A program made the translations under genes and the position numbers. A stretch of 41,552 nucleotides of DNA, from NCBI GenBank assembly GCA_029212785.1, contig JARGOG010000017.1, positions 27,962-69,513 of the forward strand, in the 5' to 3' direction. The notes beneath the pieces were generated by a model. That model did not search any database, was not told where the DNA came from, and was given only the letters and a program-made list of their open reading frames with translations. The stretch comes from Thalassobaculaceae bacterium (lineage in GTDB: Bacteria > Pseudomonadota > Alphaproteobacteria > Thalassobaculales > Thalassobaculaceae). Positions 15,015 through 31,560 of this stretch are shown here, one piece after another. The stretch's first letter is position 1. Each line of letters starts with the position of its first letter.

Positions 15015-16271
15015 TTAGTAGCCCTGCTCGGTCTCGCTGTTCCGCATGTAGTGCCGTACCACCCGCCCGGTGGTCAGTCCCTGGACGATGATGGAGAAGA
15101 TCACCACCACATAGGTGACCGTCAGCAGTAGCGGCTTTTCCGGATGGTCCGGCAGCGACAGGACCAGGGCGACGGAGATCGCCCCCCGCAGCCCGCCCCA
15201 GGTCATGATCGGGATCACCCCGGGGGAGAAGGCGCGGCGCAGCTTGAGGGCGGTGATCGGGATTCCGACGGCGATGGCGCGGGCGCCGAGCACCAACGGG
15301 ATCGACGCCAAGCCGTAGAGCAGATAGCTCGCGTCAACCGCGACGGTCAGCACCTCGAGCCCGATCAGCAGGAACAGCACCGCGTTCAGGATCTCGTCGA
15401 TCAGCCGCCAGAACGCATCCACATGCTCTCGGGTGACGGCGCTCATGCCGTATTTGACGCCCTTGTGACCGATCAGCAGGCCGGCGACCACGACGGCGAT
15501 GGGGCCGCTCATGTGCAGCGCGTGCGCCAGCGAGTAGGTGCCCATGACCAGGGCGAGGGTCAGCAGCACCTCGATGGCGTAGTCGTCCATCCGACGCATG
15601 ATCCGGTAGACGATCCAGCCGATCACGCCGCCAAGAACGGCGCCGCCGACGGCCTCGACCAGGAACAGCTCGGCCATCTCCAGCATGGTGATCGGAGCGT
15701 CCGGAGCCTGGCGAAAGGCGGCCGCGGTGGCGATCAGGAAAACCACATAGGCCACGCCGTCGTTGAACAGGCTTTCGCCGGCGATCTTGGTCTCCAGCGC
15801 CTTTGGCACCTTGATCGACTTCAGCAGGCTCAGCACCGCGACCGGATCGGTCGGCGAGATCAGCGCGCCGAAGACGAAGGCGATCAGGATCGGCACGCCG
15901 GTGAGGAGGTGGAAGCCGAGGGCGACGAGCGCCGTCGAGATCACCACGCCGAGGGTCGCCATCAGGGCGACGGCCCATTTCTGCTCGTGCAGCGAGTCGA
16001 AATCGACATGCAGCGCGCCGGCGAACAGCAGGAAGCCAAGCATGCCCTTCAGCAGGGCATCGGCGAAATCGATCTCGAGGATCTGCTGGCGAACCACATC
16101 GTCGACCCTGAAGCCCGGGATCACCGCGTTCAGGCTGACCAGGATCAGCGACGCCGCCAGGCCGATAACCACCAGGCCGACCGTCGAGGGCAAGCGGATG
16201 ACGAAGTGGTTCAGGACGCCGCATGCCGCCGCAAGGCTGACCAGGATCGCGGCAATGTCGAAAGGCGTCAT
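15015..16271 (-). CDS. NhaP-type cation:proton antiporter (CPA1)
   Basis: A 418-residue membrane protein with about 12 hydrophobic segments. Family markers are the FALLISPTDPVAVLSLLK-like stretch (here FGALISPTDPVAV), SLFNDGVAYVVFL with the ND ion-binding pair, and the late segment TWGGLRGAISVALVLSLP. It should exchange Na+ or K+ for protons across the inner membrane. It lies 88 bases downstream of the RND pump on the same strand, so it may be the last gene of that operon. The ATG at 16271 is preceded by AGGGA. Confidence 0.9.
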   Translation of the reverse strand: MTPFDIAAILVSLAAACGVLNHFVIRLPSTVGLVVIGLAASLILVSLNAVIPGFRVDDVVRQQILEIDFADALLKGMLGFLLFAGALHVDFDSLHEQKWAVALMATLGVVISTALVALGFHLLTGVPILIAFVFGALISPTDPVAVLSLLKSIKVPKALETKIAGESLFNDGVAYVVFLIATAAAFRQAPDAPITMLEMAELFLVEAVGGAVLGGVIGWIVYRIMRRMDDYAIEVLLTLALVMGTYSLAHALHMSGPIAVVVAGLLIGHKGVKYGMSAVTREHVDAFWRLIDEILNAVLFLLIGLEVLTVAVDASYLLYGLASIPLVLGARAIAVGIPITALKLRRAFSPGVIPIMTWGGLRGAISVALVLSLPDHPEKPLLLTVTYVVVIFSIIVQGLTTGRVVRHYMRNSETEQGY

Positions 16272-16359
16272 GCTGGGTCCCTGCGATATCGCCGCCGGAA
16301 GACGGCCTTCCCGTGTCTACCACCAAAGCAGCGCGGGAGGCACGGTGTTGGCGGTGGCG

Positions 16360-19300
16360 TCAGTCGTCTCCCGCACCCAGTGGCTTCGGAGGCGGAGTCG
16401 CGTCGCCGCCTTCGGCCACGTCGGGCACAGTGTCCGCGTGCGCCATTTCGCGCTCAAGCTTGTCGGCGCCGCTGGCACGGGCCGGCGACAGGCGGGCGAG
16501 GCCCAGATACACGACCGGCGTCAGATACAGGGTGAAGACCGCGGCAAGACCGAGCCCGCCGAACACCACCCAGCCGATGGCCATGCGCGCCTCGGCCCCC
16601 GGGCCGTGGCTCAAGATCAGCGGCAGGCCGCCGAGAATGGTCGAGACCATGGTCATCACGATCGGGCGCAGGCGGACGATGGCCGCCCGCTCCGCCGCCT
16701 CGCGCACGGAGAAGCCACGGTCGCGGAGTTGGTCGGCGAATTCGACCACCAGGATACCGTTCTTCGCCATCAGGCCGATCATCATCACCAGGCCGATCTG
16801 GCTGTAGACGTTCATCGACGTGCCGGTCAGCAGCAGGGCGTAGATCGCCGCGGCGATGCCGAACGGCACGGTGATGATGACGATCGCCGCGCTGGTGATG
16901 CTCTCGAACTGGGCGACCAGCACCAGGAACACCACGATGATGGCGATGGCGTAGGTGATCATCACCTCGCGCTCCGCCTCCTCCAGCGCCTCCGCTTCGC
17001 CGAGCAGGATCATGTCGACGCCTTCCGGCAGCACCGCCTCGGCGATCTCGCGGATGTCGACCGCCGCCTGCTTCAGGGTGACGCTCGGCCGCACATCTGC
17101 GTCTATCTCCACCGCGCGGCGCTGCACGTGGCGGTCGAGCTCGTTGGCGACGCCTTCTTCGGTCAGGGTGACCAGGCTGGACAGCGGCACCAGCGACCCC
17201 CTGTCGGTGCGGATATACAGGTTCACCAGATCGCTCGGGTCGTCGATGGCGCCACTGCGCGCCTCCAGCATGATCGGGATGGATTCGTCGCGGACGTTGA
17301 GGTCGGCGATGTCCATGCCGTCGATCATCACACGGAGCGTGTCGGCCAGATCGTCGAGCGGAATGCCGAGATCGGACGCTCGGCGCCGGTCGATGCGCAC
17401 GGAAAGCTGCGGCTGGGTCGGCTGGTAGGAGATGCGGATGTCCGAGAGATAGGGCAGCCGCTTCTCGATCTCGGCGGTCATTCCCTTGGCCGCCTCGTAC
17501 AGATGCAGGTAGTCGTTTCCGATGAGAGCGACCTCAAGCCCGCCGGCATTGCTGCGCAGGTTCAGACTGTTCGAGCCGTAGACGCGGATCCGCATGCCGG
17601 GGATCGCATTCATCTGCGGTCGGATCTCGTTCATGATCTCCTGCTGCGAGCGGGCCCGTTCCTTCCACGGCGCGAGCGGGGCGGAGACGAACACCCGGTT
17701 CAGGTCGTAGCGGCCGACGATGGTGAACAGCGACTCGATCTCGCCGCTGTCGAGATAAGGCTGGAGCACCGCCTCCATCTTGTCCGATTGCCGGTCGCTG
17801 TAGGACAGGCCCGCACCGTCCGGGCCGGTGCCGAAGACGAAGATGATCCCCCGATCCTCAGTCGGCAGCAATTCCCGGTCCAGCCGCTCGTAGGCGAACC
17901 AGGATCCGGCGGCGAGGATGGTCGCGACCGCGACAACGATCAGAGGGGCCGCCAGCGCCGCCCGCAAGGTTACGGCGTAGAGATCGGCGAGGCGGGTTCC
18001 CAGCGACCCGAGGGCGCGGCGAATTCCGAAGCGGCTCGGGCCATCTTCGCCGAGACGGGCGGCCAGGGCCGGTACCAGCGTCAACGCGACGAAGGACGAG
18101 ATCACCATGGCGATCGCCAGGACGAAGCCGAACTCGCGGAACAGCCGGCCGGCGGTGCTGGGCAGAAAGGAGATCGGCACGAAGACCGACACCAGGGTGG
18201 CGGTGGTGGCGATGACGGCGAAGAACACCTGACGCGAGCCGAGCACGGCGGCGGCCCGGGCCCCGAGCGACTGGCCGCGGCGGCGCTGGATGTTCTCCAG
18301 CACCACGATGCTGTCGTCGACGATCATCCCGGTGGCGAGCACCAGGGCCAGAAGGGTGAGGATGTTGATCGAGAAGCCGAGCAGCCAGATCGCCGCCACC
18401 GAGCCGACCAGCGCGATCGGGATCGACACGCAGGGGATCAGAGTGGCGCTCGGCGAGCCCAGGAACAGCCAGAGCGTGGCGATAACGATCAGTACCGCCA
18501 GCACCAGGGTATAGAGCACCTCCTCGACCGATCCCTCGATGAACTGGGCGTCGTCGGAGGTCACGCGCACCTGGATGCGCTCGAAGCGGCCGTTGATCTC
18601 GGCGACCGTTTCGCGGACCCGCTCGGAGATCTGGATCGTGTTGGACTGGGCCTGGCGCACGATGCCGAGGCCGATCACATGGACGCCGTCGACCCGCACA
18701 AAGCTCTCTGCATCCTCCGGGCCGAAGAACACCTGGGCGACGTCTCCGACGCGAATGTTGTCGCGGATGACGATCGCCTCGACCTCGACGGCGTTCTCCA
18801 CCGTCGCATCCGCCCGCACGATCAGCTCCTGATCCTCGGACCCGAAGCTGCCGGCGGGGATGTCGAAGGGCGCGTTCTTCAGCACGTCGATCACATCGCT
18901 GACCGAGAGCTGGTAGGCGCTGAGGCGCAGCGGATCGAGGACCACCCGGAGCTGGCGCTGACGGTCGCCGAACAGGTTCACGTCGGCCACGCCGTCGACC
19001 GAGATCAGCTCTGGAATGATGTCGTTCTCGACGATGCGGGCCAGATCCTCCTCGCTGACTTCCTCACCGAGCACGGCGAGCCGCATGATCGGGGAGGCGT
19101 CGGCGTCGGCCTTGACCACCGCCAGTTGCTCCACATTGTCGGGCAGCTCGCGCTCCACCCGGCTCACGGCCTCGCGCACGTCGGCGGCGGCGAGATCGAG
19201 ATTGGCGCCGGGATCGAACTCGACCCGCATGCGGAAGTTGTTCTCCTCGCTCGACGAATGGATCTGGCGCACGCCGTTGACCCGAGCGACCGCGCCTTCG

Positions 19301-19536
19301 ACGATGCTGGTCACCTCGCGGTCCATGGTTTCCGGCGAGGCACCCTGGAGAATGCCGCGCACGCTGACGATCGGCCGGTCGACATTCGGCAGTTCACGGA
19401 CTTCGACGGCCAGGATCGCGGCGAACCCGGCAAGCGCGATCAGCAGATTGAAGACCAGCGCCAGCAGCGGCCGGCGCACGCTGAGCGACGGCAGGTCGCT
19501 GATGCCGGCCGACGGCTTCGGCGGGGTCGTGTTCAT
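16360..19536 (-). CDS. RND efflux permease (AcrB-like)
   Basis: A 1058-residue inner-membrane pump of the hydrophobe/amphiphile RND family. It has the first membrane helix at residues 25-45, a large periplasmic loop, a cluster of helices near 335-540 including the proton-relay pair in GMIVDDSIVVLENI, a second periplasmic loop and a final helix cluster near 865-1030. The internal duplication expected of the family is evident. Substrate cannot be deduced. Its ATG overlaps the stop of the membrane fusion protein (ATGA), indicating coupled translation. No TolC-like outer-membrane gene is in the window, so it must use one encoded elsewhere. Confidence 0.94.
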   Translation of the reverse strand: MNTTPPKPSAGISDLPSLSVRRPLLALVFNLLIALAGFAAILAVEVRELPNVDRPIVSVRGILQGASPETMDREVTSIVEGAVARVNGVRQIHSSSEENNFRMRVEFDPGANLDLAAADVREAVSRVERELPDNVEQLAVVKADADASPIMRLAVLGEEVSEEDLARIVENDIIPELISVDGVADVNLFGDRQRQLRVVLDPLRLSAYQLSVSDVIDVLKNAPFDIPAGSFGSEDQELIVRADATVENAVEVEAIVIRDNIRVGDVAQVFFGPEDAESFVRVDGVHVIGLGIVRQAQSNTIQISERVRETVAEINGRFERIQVRVTSDDAQFIEGSVEEVLYTLVLAVLIVIATLWLFLGSPSATLIPCVSIPIALVGSVAAIWLLGFSINILTLLALVLATGMIVDDSIVVLENIQRRRGQSLGARAAAVLGSRQVFFAVIATTATLVSVFVPISFLPSTAGRLFREFGFVLAIAMVISSFVALTLVPALAARLGEDGPSRFGIRRALGSLGTRLADLYAVTLRAALAAPLIVVAVATILAAGSWFAYERLDRELLPTEDRGIIFVFGTGPDGAGLSYSDRQSDKMEAVLQPYLDSGEIESLFTIVGRYDLNRVFVSAPLAPWKERARSQQEIMNEIRPQMNAIPGMRIRVYGSNSLNLRSNAGGLEVALIGNDYLHLYEAAKGMTAEIEKRLPYLSDIRISYQPTQPQLSVRIDRRRASDLGIPLDDLADTLRVMIDGMDIADLNVRDESIPIMLEARSGAIDDPSDLVNLYIRTDRGSLVPLSSLVTLTEEGVANELDRHVQRRAVEIDADVRPSVTLKQAAVDIREIAEAVLPEGVDMILLGEAEALEEAEREVMITYAIAIIVVFLVLVAQFESITSAAIVIITVPFGIAAAIYALLLTGTSMNVYSQIGLVMMIGLMAKNGILVVEFADQLRDRGFSVREAAERAAIVRLRPIVMTMVSTILGGLPLILSHGPGAEARMAIGWVVFGGLGLAAVFTLYLTPVVYLGLARLSPARASGADKLEREMAHADTVPDVAEGGDATPPPKPLGAGDD

Positions 19537-20648
19537 GATCCGGCGCCTTGCAGGCGGGCCGGGACCGGCTTCGGCGCGATCCTGTCCTCCGGCACGATCT
19601 CGACCGGTGAGCCGGGTCGCATGCGGTGTAGGCCCTCGACCACCACAAGATCGTCAGGGGCGAGCCCGCCATCGACCAGGACCATGGCTTCCTGACGTTG
19701 GACGATGGTCACCGGCACCCGTTTCGCCGTCCCGTCGCGGACGGCCCACACGAACGAGCCATCGCCGCCCCACTGGATCGCAACTTCGGGTACGCGCGGG
19801 TGATCGGCGCCGCGGATGTCGAGGCTCACGCGGAAGCTCATGCCCGGCCGCAGCAGGTCGTCACCGTTGGGGATGCGGGCGCGGACGGTGTAGGACCGGT
19901 TCTCCTCGTCGACCCGGCTGTCCACGTCAAAGACCGTACCCTCGGCGGAGATGTCGGCGCTCGCCCACGGCACGACCGAGGCCGTCTCACCGACTCGGAT
20001 CCGACCGAGTAGAGCTTCGGGTACCGCGAAACGCACCAGCAGGGTGGAGCGGTCGTCGAGGGAGGCGATGCGGGTGTCGGAAGAGACCCGGTCGCCGATA
20101 TCGAGATCGGTCAGACCGATCCGACCGGAGAACGGGGCGACCACGAAGCGGTCGGACAGTGCGACCTCGGATTGCTTCAGGGAAATCCGCGCCGCCTCGA
20201 GCGTGGTCAAGGCGTCGTCCAGGGTCGCCTGGGCGACGGCACCGGAACTGCTCAGGCTGCTGAGACGCTTGACGATCCGGTTGGCATCGGCAAGCCGGAC
20301 ACGGGCAAGTTGCACCGCCAGTTCCTCCGCCTCGCGGTCGAGTTCGAGCAGGACGTCGCCCTGCTTGACCACGCCGTCGCCGGTGAAGTTGATGGCTTCG
20401 ATTTCGCCGGCGGTGGGGGCGAACAGGATGGCGGAATGTTCGGCCCTTGCCGTGCCGACGGCTTCGACGCGGACGCGCTCGGCGGCGAAGGTCACCTCCG
20501 CCACCACGGCGGCGGCGGCCTTCGTCCCGCCGCGCGGCGGCTTGTTGCCGTCTCCCGCATCGGACAGCATCGGGCCGGCGAAGACCCAGCCGGCAGCCAC
20601 GAGGGCGGCCAGCAGTCCGACCACGAGAATCTGACGCAAGACAGTCAT
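19533..20648 (-). CDS. RND efflux membrane fusion protein (HlyD/AcrA-like)
   Basis: A 371-residue periplasmic adaptor. It has an N-terminal membrane anchor (residues 5-25), a lipoyl-like half-motif FTGDGVVKQGDVLLELD, a helical hairpin of about 60 residues (QLARVRLADANRI to ALSDRFVV), the second lipoyl half VVAPFSGRIGLTDLDIGDRV and C-terminal beta-barrel domains. I chose the ATG at 20648, which is preceded by GGAGGGG; the open frame continues upstream without conserved sequence. It joins the RND pump to an outer-membrane channel. First gene of the pump operon. Confidence 0.92.
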   Translation of the reverse strand: MTVLRQILVVGLLAALVAAGWVFAGPMLSDAGDGNKPPRGGTKAAAAVVAEVTFAAERVRVEAVGTARAEHSAILFAPTAGEIEAINFTGDGVVKQGDVLLELDREAEELAVQLARVRLADANRIVKRLSSLSSSGAVAQATLDDALTTLEAARISLKQSEVALSDRFVVAPFSGRIGLTDLDIGDRVSSDTRIASLDDRSTLLVRFAVPEALLGRIRVGETASVVPWASADISAEGTVFDVDSRVDEENRSYTVRARIPNGDDLLRPGMSFRVSLDIRGADHPRVPEVAIQWGGDGSFVWAVRDGTAKRVPVTIVQRQEAMVLVDGGLAPDDLVVVEGLHRMRPGSPVEIVPEDRIAPKPVPARLQGAGS

Positions 20649-27711: not shown

Positions 27712-27917
27712 GGCGGATATCCCCCGGATCCGTGTGTTTGCGTGGACCCTTACACGGAGCGCGAGGGGTCTGCCAGTGTGTCTGAACCCACATCGCGCCG
27801 TGTTCGCGACATATTATGCGGATAGGGTCGGCAACCGGTCGGTCCTCACGGCGTTGGGAATGCGTGCGCCCAGCGCGTCTGGTAGGGTGGGGCTAGGTTT
27901 CGGAGGTACTTGAATTG

Positions 27918-30374
27918 ATGCGTTGGCTGCTCGGACTCTTCACGATGCTGCTGATCATGGCGATCGGTGCGGCGGGCGCGGTGCTATACGGATTTCACCA
28001 TTTCGGGCGCGGATTGCCGGACTATGAGTTCCTGGCCGATTACGAGCCGCCGGTGGTGACGCGGGTGCATGCGGGCGACGGCCGCCTGCTGGCCGAGTAT
28101 GCCCGTAACAAGCGCATCTTCGTGGCGATCGACGCGATTCCGAAGCGTGTGGTGAAAGCCTTCCTCGCCGCCGAGGACAAGAATTTCTACAACCATCCGG
28201 GCATCGACTTCATCAGCCTCGCCTCGGCCGTCGTCATCAACCTGAAGAATTACGGCACCGGCCGTCGGCCGGTCGGCGCGTCGACCATCACCCAGCAGGT
28301 GGCCAAGAACTTCCTGCTGACCAACGAGGTGTCGATCGACCGCAAAGCCAAGGAGGCGATCCTCTCCTTCCGCATCGAGCGGGTGTTGAGCAAGGACCGC
28401 ATCCTCGAGCTGTATCTGAACGAGATCTATCTCGGTTTCGGTTCCTACGGTGTGGCCGCGGCGGCACTGAACTATTTCGACAAGCCGCTGGCCGAACTGA
28501 CCGTCGCCGAGGCCGCCTATCTTGCCGCGCTGCCGAAAGCGCCGAACAACTATCACCCCACTCGCAAGCACGCGGCAGCGATCGCCCGCCGCAACTGGGT
28601 GATCGGGCAGATGGCGGAGAACGGCTTCATCACCCAGGCGGAAGCGGACGCCGCCCGGACCGAGCCGCTGGTCGTCGCCACCGCCACGACGACGGTTGAC
28701 GAGACCTCCGCCGATTACTTCGCCGAGGAGGTGCGCCGCGACCTGATCGACCGCTACGGCGATACCGGCCTCTACGAAGGCGGGCTGTCGGTCCGCACCA
28801 CCCTGGATCCGAAGATGCAGAGGATCGCCGACAGGGCGCTGCGCCAGGGGCTGGAGGAGTATGATCGCCGGCATGGCTGGCGCGGCCCGATCGCGAAGAT
28901 CGAGATCGTTGCCGGTTGGGGCGATGCGCTGGCCAAGGTCGAGCGCCCGGCGGGTCTCGGCGACTGGACCCTGGGCGCGGTGGTCAAGGCGGACGCCAAG
29001 GCGGCGACGATCGGCTTCCCCGACGGGTCGCTGGCGACGCTGCCCTACGACCAGATGGCATGGGCGCGGGAATGGCTGGAGGACCAGCGGTTCGGCAACA
29101 CGCCGAAATCGGTGACCGAGGTGCTGTCCGTCGGCGATGTGGTGCCGGTCGAGACCCTGACCGAGAACGAGAAGGGCGAGGCCTATGCCGAGGCCACGGT
29201 GGCGCTGCGCCAGATCCCGGATGTCGGGGGCGCCCTCGTCGCCATGGACCCGCATACCGGACGGGTACTGGCCATGTCCGGTGGCTATAGTGCCGATATG
29301 AGCGAGTTCAATCGGGCGACCCAGGCCAGGCGTCAGCCGGGTTCGGCGTTCAAGCCGATCGTCTATCTGGCCGGGCTCGACAGCGGCTACTCGCCGGCGA
29401 CCCGGATCCTCGACGCGCCCTTCGTGCTCGACCAGGGCCCCGGCCTGCCGAAGTGGAAGCCGTCGAACTACTCCAACGAATTCTACGGTCCGACGCCGAT
29501 GCGTATGGGCATCGAGAAGTCGCGCAACCTGATGACCGTACGCCTGGCCCAGACCATCGGCATGGAGAAGGTGGTCCAGTATGCCAAGCGCTTCGGCGTG
29601 GTCGACGAGATGCAGCCGCATCTGTCCTTCGCGCTCGGCGCGGCGGAGACGACGCTGCTGCGCATGACCACGGCCTATTCGATGCTGGTCAACGGCGGCA
29701 AGCGGATCACCCCGTCGCTGTTCGACCGGGTGGTCGACCGTCATGGCCGCACCGTCTACCGGCACGACGACCGGCCCTGCAACGGCTGTTCGTCCGCATC
29801 CTGGAACGGCGGACCGCCGCCGCGGATTCCGGACAACCGCGAACAGATCGTCGATCCGGCTTCGGCCTATCAGGTCGTGTCGATGCTGGAGGGCGTCGTA
29901 TTGCGCGGCACCGGCCGGCGCATCGCCGAGCTTGGCAAGACGCTGGGCGGCAAGACCGGTACGACCAACGAGAACATGGACACCTGGTTCGTCGGCTTCT
30001 CGCCCGATCTGGCGGTCGGCGTCTTCGTCGGTTTCGACCAGCCGCGCACGCTCGGCCGCCGAGACACCGGTTCCAGCGTGGCCGCCCCGATCTTCAAACT
30101 GTTCATGGCCGAGGCGCTGGATGGGGTCGTGACTCCCGATTTCCGCATCCCGCCGGGTGTCCGGATGGTGTGGATCGACCACGACACCGGGGCGCGTGCC
30201 GAGCCCGGCGCGCGCGGCGCCATCCTGGAGGCGTTCAAGCCGGGGACCGAGCCGACCGGCGAGAGCATGGTGATCGGCGGGGGCATGGGCCCGGCGCCGG
30301 ATGGCGGCTCGGCACCGGTTTCCGCACCGGCCTCCGCGGCGCCTGTTGCGACCAGCGGTTCCGGGCTCTATTAA
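27918..30374 (+). CDS. mrcA: class A penicillin-binding protein 1A (transglycosylase/transpeptidase)
   Basis: An 818-residue bifunctional peptidoglycan synthase. It has one N-terminal membrane helix (residues 2-25); a GT51 transglycosylase domain about 45-235 with the catalytic Glu in AAEDKNFYNHPGID and TITQQVAKN; an inserted OB-like domain about 310-420; and a transpeptidase domain with SAFK (active-site Ser), SRN (SxN) and KTGTT, all intact. The C terminus is Pro/Ala/Ser-rich. A TTG at 27915 precedes the ATG at 27918; GGAGG at 27902-27906 serves either. It makes and crosslinks glycan strands in the periplasm. Confidence 0.94.
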   Translation: MRWLLGLFTMLLIMAIGAAGAVLYGFHHFGRGLPDYEFLADYEPPVVTRVHAGDGRLLAEYARNKRIFVAIDAIPKRVVKAFLAAEDKNFYNHPGIDFISLASAVVINLKNYGTGRRPVGASTITQQVAKNFLLTNEVSIDRKAKEAILSFRIERVLSKDRILELYLNEIYLGFGSYGVAAAALNYFDKPLAELTVAEAAYLAALPKAPNNYHPTRKHAAAIARRNWVIGQMAENGFITQAEADAARTEPLVVATATTTVDETSADYFAEEVRRDLIDRYGDTGLYEGGLSVRTTLDPKMQRIADRALRQGLEEYDRRHGWRGPIAKIEIVAGWGDALAKVERPAGLGDWTLGAVVKADAKAATIGFPDGSLATLPYDQMAWAREWLEDQRFGNTPKSVTEVLSVGDVVPVETLTENEKGEAYAEATVALRQIPDVGGALVAMDPHTGRVLAMSGGYSADMSEFNRATQARRQPGSAFKPIVYLAGLDSGYSPATRILDAPFVLDQGPGLPKWKPSNYSNEFYGPTPMRMGIEKSRNLMTVRLAQTIGMEKVVQYAKRFGVVDEMQPHLSFALGAAETTLLRMTTAYSMLVNGGKRITPSLFDRVVDRHGRTVYRHDDRPCNGCSSASWNGGPPPRIPDNREQIVDPASAYQVVSMLEGVVLRGTGRRIAELGKTLGGKTGTTNENMDTWFVGFSPDLAVGVFVGFDQPRTLGRRDTGSSVAAPIFKLFMAEALDGVVTPDFRIPPGVRMVWIDHDTGARAEPGARGAILEAFKPGTEPTGESMVIGGGMGPAPDGGSAPVSAPASAAPVATSGSGLY

Positions 30375-30428
30375 GCGTCTGACCGTCTTCCCCGCGTTTC
30401 GACGGACGTCACCTGCACGGAGGGCGCA

Positions 30429-31560
30429 ATGCGCGCCGAGACCACCCAGACCCTCGATGAAATCAAGCAGTCGATCGAACTGCTGAGGAGGCATCTTTGA
30501 CTGGGATGTCGCACTGACACGGCTGTCCGAACTGGACGCCCTGACCCAGGACCAGAGCCTGTGGGACGACCCGGGCCGTGCGCAGACCCTGATGCAGGAG
30601 CGCACCCGGCTGGAGAAGCAGATCGAGGACGTGAGGGTGCTCGACCGGACGGTCGAGGATTCCGTCATGATGATCGAGCTCGGCGAGGCCGAAGGCGATG
30701 GCGATACCGTCGCTGAAGCCGAGAAGGAGCTGGAAGCGGTCCGCGTCAAAGCCGAAAAGATGCAGATCGAGAGCATGCTGTCCGGCGAGGCGGACGCGCT
30801 TGATGCCTATCTCGAGGTGCATGCCGGCGCCGGCGGTACCGAGGCCCAGGACTGGGCCGAGATGCTGCTGCGCATGTACACCCGCTGGGCTGAGCGTCAG
30901 GGCTACAAGGTGGAATGGCTGGAGGAGAGTTCGGGCGAAGAAGCCGGGCTCAAATCGGCGACCATCAAGATCTCGGGGCACAACGCCTATGGCTGGCTGA
31001 AGACGGAGAGCGGCGTGCATCGGCTGGTCCGCATTTCGCCCTATGACAGCCAGGCGCGGCGCCATACCAGTTTCTCCAGCGCCTGGGTCTATCCGGTGGT
31101 CGACGACTCGATCGATATCGTGATCGAGGACAAGGACCTGAAGGTCGACACCTACCGCGCCTCCGGCGCTGGCGGTCAGCACGTCAACCGGACGGATTCG
31201 GCGATCCGCATCACCCATCTTCCATCGGGCATCGTCGTGCAGTGCCAGAACGATCGCTCGCAGCACCGCAACCGGGCGACGGCCATGGACATGCTGCGGG
31301 CCCGGCTCTACGAGGCCGAATTGCAGCGCCGCGAGGAAGAGGCCACCGCCACCGAGGCGACCAAGGCCGATATCGGCTGGGGTCACCAGATCCGCTCCTA
31401 CGTCCTGCAGCCCTACCAGATGGTCAAGGACCTGCGCAGCGGGCATGAGAGCGGCAATCCGTCGGCCGTTCTGGACGGCGATATCGATGCGTTTCTGGAG
31501 GCCTCCCTGGCCGGCAAGGTCGGCATGAGCCGTGACGGCGACGACTCGGCGGGAGGCTAA
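30429..31560 (+). CDS. prfB: peptide chain release factor 2, expressed by programmed +1 frameshift
   Basis: RF2 releases nascent peptides at UGA and UAA codons. The gene starts at ATG 30429; 23 codons lead to CTT (30495-30497) followed by TGA (30498-30500) and C. Skipping T 30498 puts CTT GAC TGG in frame with the rest, giving 376 residues (E. coli RF2 has 365), so the coding sequence is 30429-30497 joined to 30499-31560. An internal Shine-Dalgarno AGGAGG (30486-30491) lies three bases before CTT, matching the E. coli signal. Downstream are SGAGGQHVNRTDSA (GGQ catalytic loop) and SPYD, where E. coli has SPF as the stop-codon-reading tripeptide. A gene call from 30592 would miss the N terminus. 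Confidence 0.95.
30486..30501 (+). promoter_or_regulatory. RF2 programmed frameshift site
   Basis: AGGAGG, CAT, then CTT TGA C. When RF2 is scarce the ribosome pauses at the UGA and slips +1 with help of the internal Shine-Dalgarno; when RF2 is abundant it terminates. Spacing and slip codon are the same as in E. coli prfB. Confidence 0.93.

Follow-up and report, generated by a model that had tools for sequence, protein, structure and literature searches.

A CTT frameshift cassette in the prfB gene of a Thalassobaculaceae bacterium, and a GTT variant of its shift codon in related lineages

The prfB locus

The window is the whole stretch of Thalassobaculaceae DNA that was analysed, 41,552 nucleotides long. 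On its plus strand, a PBP1A-type gene (27915-30374), whose TIGR02074 score is above the cut-off, is followed by prfB, the gene of release factor 2 (RF2). The prfB ATG at 30429 lies 54 bases 3' of the stop of the PBP1A-type gene. The N terminus of RF2 and the rest of the protein are encoded in two different frames, which meet at a compact cassette. The features of the gene are the following.

30419-30424, plus strand: GGAGGG, as read from the sequence, 4 bases 5' of the ATG; likely ribosome-binding site of the prfB zero frame
30429-30497, plus strand: zero-frame leader of 23 codons, MRAETTQTLDEIKQSIELLRRHL, with its start ATG at 30429-30431
30486-30491, plus strand: internal Shine-Dalgarno-like (SD) hexamer AGGAGG, read from the sequence
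30492-30494, plus strand: spacer of three bases, codon CAT, read from the sequence
30495-30498, plus strand: shift site CTT_T, composed of the P-site codon CTT (30495-30497) and the first base of the stop codon, read from the sequence
30498-30500, plus strand: putative regulatory stop TGA, in the zero frame, read from the sequence
30501, plus strand: C 3' of the stop (weak termination context), read from the sequence
30499-31560, plus strand: RF2 body in the +1 frame, 353 residues and a stop codon, with GGQ and SPY, assigned by profile score and homology

The RF2 frame opens with the codon GAC at 30499 and closes with the stop codon at 31558-31560. A +1 slip joins the 23 leader codons to the 353 codons of the body, giving 376 residues with HL and DWDV on the two sides of the junction. 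An earlier note on this DNA had placed the N terminus in another frame up to CTT TGA C, with a geometry like that of Escherichia coli (AGGAGG and a three-base spacer). Both statements hold: coordinates, geometry, and the length of 376 residues can be read directly, and all known elements of the cassette stand at their published spacing. Counting both strands, the window contains the strict motif [AC]GG[AG]GG-N3-CTTTGAC a single time, versus 0.0066 occurrences expected from its first-order Markov model, and this occurrence coincides with the point where RF2 homology begins.

Upstream of 30592, the RF2 frame is devoid of ATG, GTG, and TTG back to the in-frame stop at 30484. The ATG at 30592 is the first usual start for a plain ORF finder, and the ORF from there encodes 322 amino acids. 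It is thus true, as had been stated, that plain ORF finding starts the protein at 30592; the loss, given as 55 residues, amounts to 54 of the 376. Modern pipelines need not truncate prfB, since the survey PMC12421855, as described in its available text, took as input the prfB genes annotated by NCBI's pipeline.

Two further long ORFs are found in the window. One, on the minus strand (27984-30776, 930 aa), lies opposite the PBP1A-type gene and prfB; the other, on the plus strand (15763-19695, 1,310 aa), is antisense to an ORF at 16360-19536 (a putative transporter, judged by eye). Both are probably shadow ORFs of a G+C-rich genome.

Identity of the product

The 376-residue product scores 507.9 bits against the NCBIfam model TIGR00020 (prfB), for which the curated cut-off is 370, whereas the RF1 models give 268.2 and 263.8, below their cut-offs of 400 and 423.25. 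Aligned to the solved E. coli RF2 (1gqe; E 3.3e-120), a comparison that the earlier note had proposed, it displays homology from the first shifted residue on. The partner of this residue is residue 26 of E. coli RF2, and the in-frame stop of E. coli prfB is reported as codon 26 (PMC12421855, in its available text). The translation possesses the GGQ motif and, at 31036-31044 of the window, the tripeptide SPY, where E. coli has SPF. Among the 109 loci with a CTT cassette described below, 61 carry SPF and 47 SPY, and neither was found in one.

Comparison with known prfB sites

The E. coli prfB site is given as AGGGGGUAUCUU UGA C in the accessible part of PMC8710568. The window shares with it the SD-like hexamer, the 3-base spacer, CTT, TGA, and C, as well as a body in the +1 frame and a junction at the equivalent residue. 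It differs in having AGGAGG instead of AGGGGG, CAT instead of TAT, and 23 codons before the stop instead of 25. In the survey PMC12421855, from the sections available, a premature in-frame stop in prfB is counted in 8,164 of 12,753 genomes (64%), and in about half of the alphaproteobacterial ones; compared with the CTT cassette of other Alphaproteobacteria covered there (Rhodospirillales, Caulobacterales), nothing notable differs in the window. The same sections report CTTTGA in nearly every prfB motif, the 21 exceptions being genomes with TTTTTGA at the same place and with SD and spacing kept, while the window has the usual CTT. RF2 autoregulation is also described in PMC5009743, whose available text finds UUU_U in a small minority of species and, among 32 variants measured next to UAG, places CUU_U far ahead in efficiency.

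The cassette among relatives

A set of 157 prfB loci was collected. It comprises 42 loci, including the window's own gene, among the matches listed (at most 30 loci per search), the 80 best of 586 candidates from named records, 5 from fetched stretches, 2 from the order of genomes G112 and G227, and 28 from the order of genome G032. Three RF1 loci (L002, L159, and L160) were left out before counting. One gene of G032 is counted twice (L127 and L157), the protein of L071 is identical to that of another row, apparently L030, and the named records may overlap further with the other genomes of the set.

The cassette is present in 142 of the 157 loci, window included, with CTT in 109 and GTT in 33 (one GTT gene twice). 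It is absent in 15, and the trait is therefore often lost. The stop is TGA at all 142 sites, though the search pattern also admitted TAA and TAG. Within the window's family, the site is readable in 32 of 36 genomes and carries CTT in 30 (window included) and GTT in 2; in the other four, the gene is cut off (G009, G043) or the match lies under the cut-off (G024, G051).

The nucleotide sequence of the cassette is tightly constrained. At all 109 CTT sites, the SD codons are AGG or CGG followed by AGG (107) or GGG (2), and AGG accounts for 113 of the 2,777 Arg codons downstream in the same genes. The CTT sites were first found without requiring an SD, so the SD is not built into the choice of loci. 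The spacer codon is CAT at 87 of these sites. The first shifted codon is GAC at all 109; two codons on, Asp is written GAT in 79 and GAC in 18. The leader peptide is identical in three loci of the same genus (L009, L014, and L018), which display 2, 1, and 1 synonymous codon differences, respectively, and no non-synonymous one. Thus, across the window and these three, the four members of the genus with large genomes, the leader peptide is unchanged and synonymous sites vary. A PBP1A-like match on the same strand is found in the fetched stretch of 132 of the 157 loci.

A looser scan of the class with YTNNTN-MGGRGG-N3-NTTTGA yields at least one match in 268 of 385 genomes, not all of these matches being confirmed as prfB, and a control with the reversed pattern gives mostly zero. 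The 16S search (RF00177), aimed at the anti-SD in the 3' end of the rRNA, returned no match in the window's genome; the same search recovered 16S in just 9 of 14 control genomes, and the missing 16S may therefore be a search miss. In the tree, the RF2 gene with a CTT cassette from a record titled Mycobacterium sp. KBS0706 (NZ_VCCH02000024.1) groups among Alphaproteobacteria, and the title of this record is probably wrong.

Interpretation of the window gene

Judged from the DNA and its relatives, the window prfB is almost certainly controlled by the canonical, autoregulatory +1 programmed ribosomal frameshift of RF2. This reading is favored because the cassette, its spacing, and its frames are exact, the product scores and aligns as RF2, the family shares the CTT cassette, and both the codons of the site and the leader peptide are conserved. 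By analogy with published work on E. coli and other bacteria, a shortage of RF2 would make the ribosome pause while UGA occupies the A site and peptidyl-tRNA-Leu sits on CUU. Pairing of the SD with the anti-SD would then promote slippage, and the tRNA would re-pair with UUU, leading to full RF2. When RF2 is plentiful, termination at UGA would release the 23-residue peptide alone. Since RF2 would in that state terminate at its own UGA, it is proposed to limit its own synthesis. The earlier view of the in-frame TGA as regulatory and not a disruption is supported by the cassette, by its conservation in the family, and by a leader whose peptide sequence is kept.

Two other explanations can be put forward for this arrangement. 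A single extra base, introduced by a sequencing or assembly error, might have interrupted an ordinary continuous prfB, and such uninterrupted genes do exist among relatives (the 15 loci without a cassette, e.g., L054). However, independent genomes share the cassette, namely those of L009, L014, and L018 in the same genus and, in total, the 109 CTT loci, window included; relatives already confirm the base, and this explanation is given next to no credence. Scarcely more credible is an RF2 whose translation begins internally, the short ORF before it encoding a separate leader peptide. It would agree with 30592 being the first usual start listed by a plain ORF finder, but the RF2 frame offers no ATG, GTG, or TTG before that position and homology to RF2 extends from the first shifted residue. 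Moreover, the leader resembles the N terminus of continuous-frame RF2 genes, again exemplified by L054.

With the programmed frameshift as the preferred reading, the window gene is an ordinary, textbook case of a phenomenon already known. It is a further clean instance of RF2 autoregulation, in which simple ORF finding truncates the protein. The benefit of this autoregulation is not obvious, because, according to the available text of the studies concerned, fitness did not change detectably upon its removal in Pseudomonas fluorescens (PMC13245932), and removal carried no obvious cost in Flavobacterium johnsoniae (PMC8710568). The P. fluorescens study also reports that mutations reducing frameshifting at the prfB site cost fitness (PMC13245932).

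A GTT shift codon in three lineages

The unexpected part lies outside the window, as a side observation to its ordinary gene. In G001 (L043) and G005 (L124), two reduced genomes of ~1.5 Mb placed in the window's genus, GTT replaces CTT, with AGGAGG, the spacing, and TGAC kept. The leader is also kept (...IKQSIKLLRR). Downstream in these two prfB genes, a single AGG occurs among 49 Arg codons in total, yet each gene has AGG at both SD positions. GTT, with TGAC, is also found in G112 and G227 (L129 and L130; family f78), which are both genomes examined of their order. The third lineage is the order of G032 (family f9, L131-L158), where all 28 prfB loci above the cut-off, from 32 genomes searched, carry GTT. 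These genomes are 0.9-2.0 Mb in size, and the loci have 25-31% G+C. Their SD is AGGGGG throughout, although further downstream GGG makes up 37 of the 471 Gly codons (the shared gene of L127 and L157 entering twice), and the base 3' of the stop is A (TGAA). The internal SD and the leader are retained at the GTT sites of all three lineages.

For 27 of the 28 f9 loci, the body of RF2 is encoded in the +1 frame. In the exception, L140 (genome G439), GTT TGA is present, but a run of A is one base shorter in the assembly, so that the body follows the TGA in the zero frame; this is taken as an assembly error or a recent loss. On a quick, midpoint-rooted RF2 tree, in which f9 forms a long branch of unusual composition and from which the L140 row dropped out, GTT needs 3 changes, and the starred branches force at least 2.

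The exact GTT pattern, CTNAGGRGGNNNGTTTGA, matches 11 of 385 genomes in the class sample, 6 of them in prfB. In the phylum sample, it matches 12 of 398 genomes, and an RF2 match was obtained at 0 of the 12 loci, L311, near a contig end, having been tested for it on only ~216 bases beyond the site. The exact pattern misses variants, as illustrated by G112, found solely by the looser YTNNTN-MGGRGG-N3-NTTTGA.

Readings of the GTT variant

We consider it fairly probable that CUU has become GUU in the window's genus and in two other alphaproteobacterial lineages, with RF2 still made by a +1 slip, here of tRNA-Val, whose pairing with UUU would include a C-U mismatch at the first position. The mismatch would follow from tRNA-Val(GAC) moving from GUU to UUU. 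This tRNA is found in G005, G032, and the CTT control G029; G112 shows only Val(TAC), in an incomplete set that also lacks tRNA-Phe. In these searches, ARAGORN was run on the stretches around tRNA matches and gave 41 tRNAs in G005, 30 in G032, 31 in G112, and 40 in G029.

Alternatively, the C-to-G change could serve to provide the RF2 frame with a start codon, ATG or TTG followed by TTT GAC or TTT GAA, which is conceivable for G001, G005, G112, G227, and most f9 loci. The new codon, an ATG in L043 and L124, would however stand just 1 base 3' of the SD. Nor is this explanation general, as 7 of the 28 f9 loci (L148, L150, and L152-L156) read TCG over the site in the RF2 frame, and their next ATG, GTG, or TTG is 27-31 codons further on. 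Consequently, no usual internal start (ATG, GTG, or TTG) can replace the slip in these seven. In L145, the base deciding the start codon over the site is an N.

Two other candidates were not borne out. Loss of the CUU-reading tRNA-Leu(GAG) does not account for the change, this tRNA being present in the GTT genomes G005, G032, and G112 and in the CTT control G029. Nor is there support for a reassigned TGA in G032, where the sole tRNA-Trp found has the anticodon CCA (30 tRNAs, in a genome 93% complete).

No natural GUU shift codon for RF2 was found in the literature searched, of which parts were available; the comparative papers Baranov 2002 and Bekaert 2006 could report one. The GTTTGA mentioned in PMC9426450 belongs, in its available text, to unrelated ORFs. 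If the slip on GUU is true, there would be natural RF2 switches whose shift codon lacks good re-pairing, in contrast with the top efficiency of CUU_U. A natural GUU site spread over a whole order would make slippage without good P-site re-pairing directly testable, and would also allow asking whether these genomes compensate for a weaker RF2 switch.
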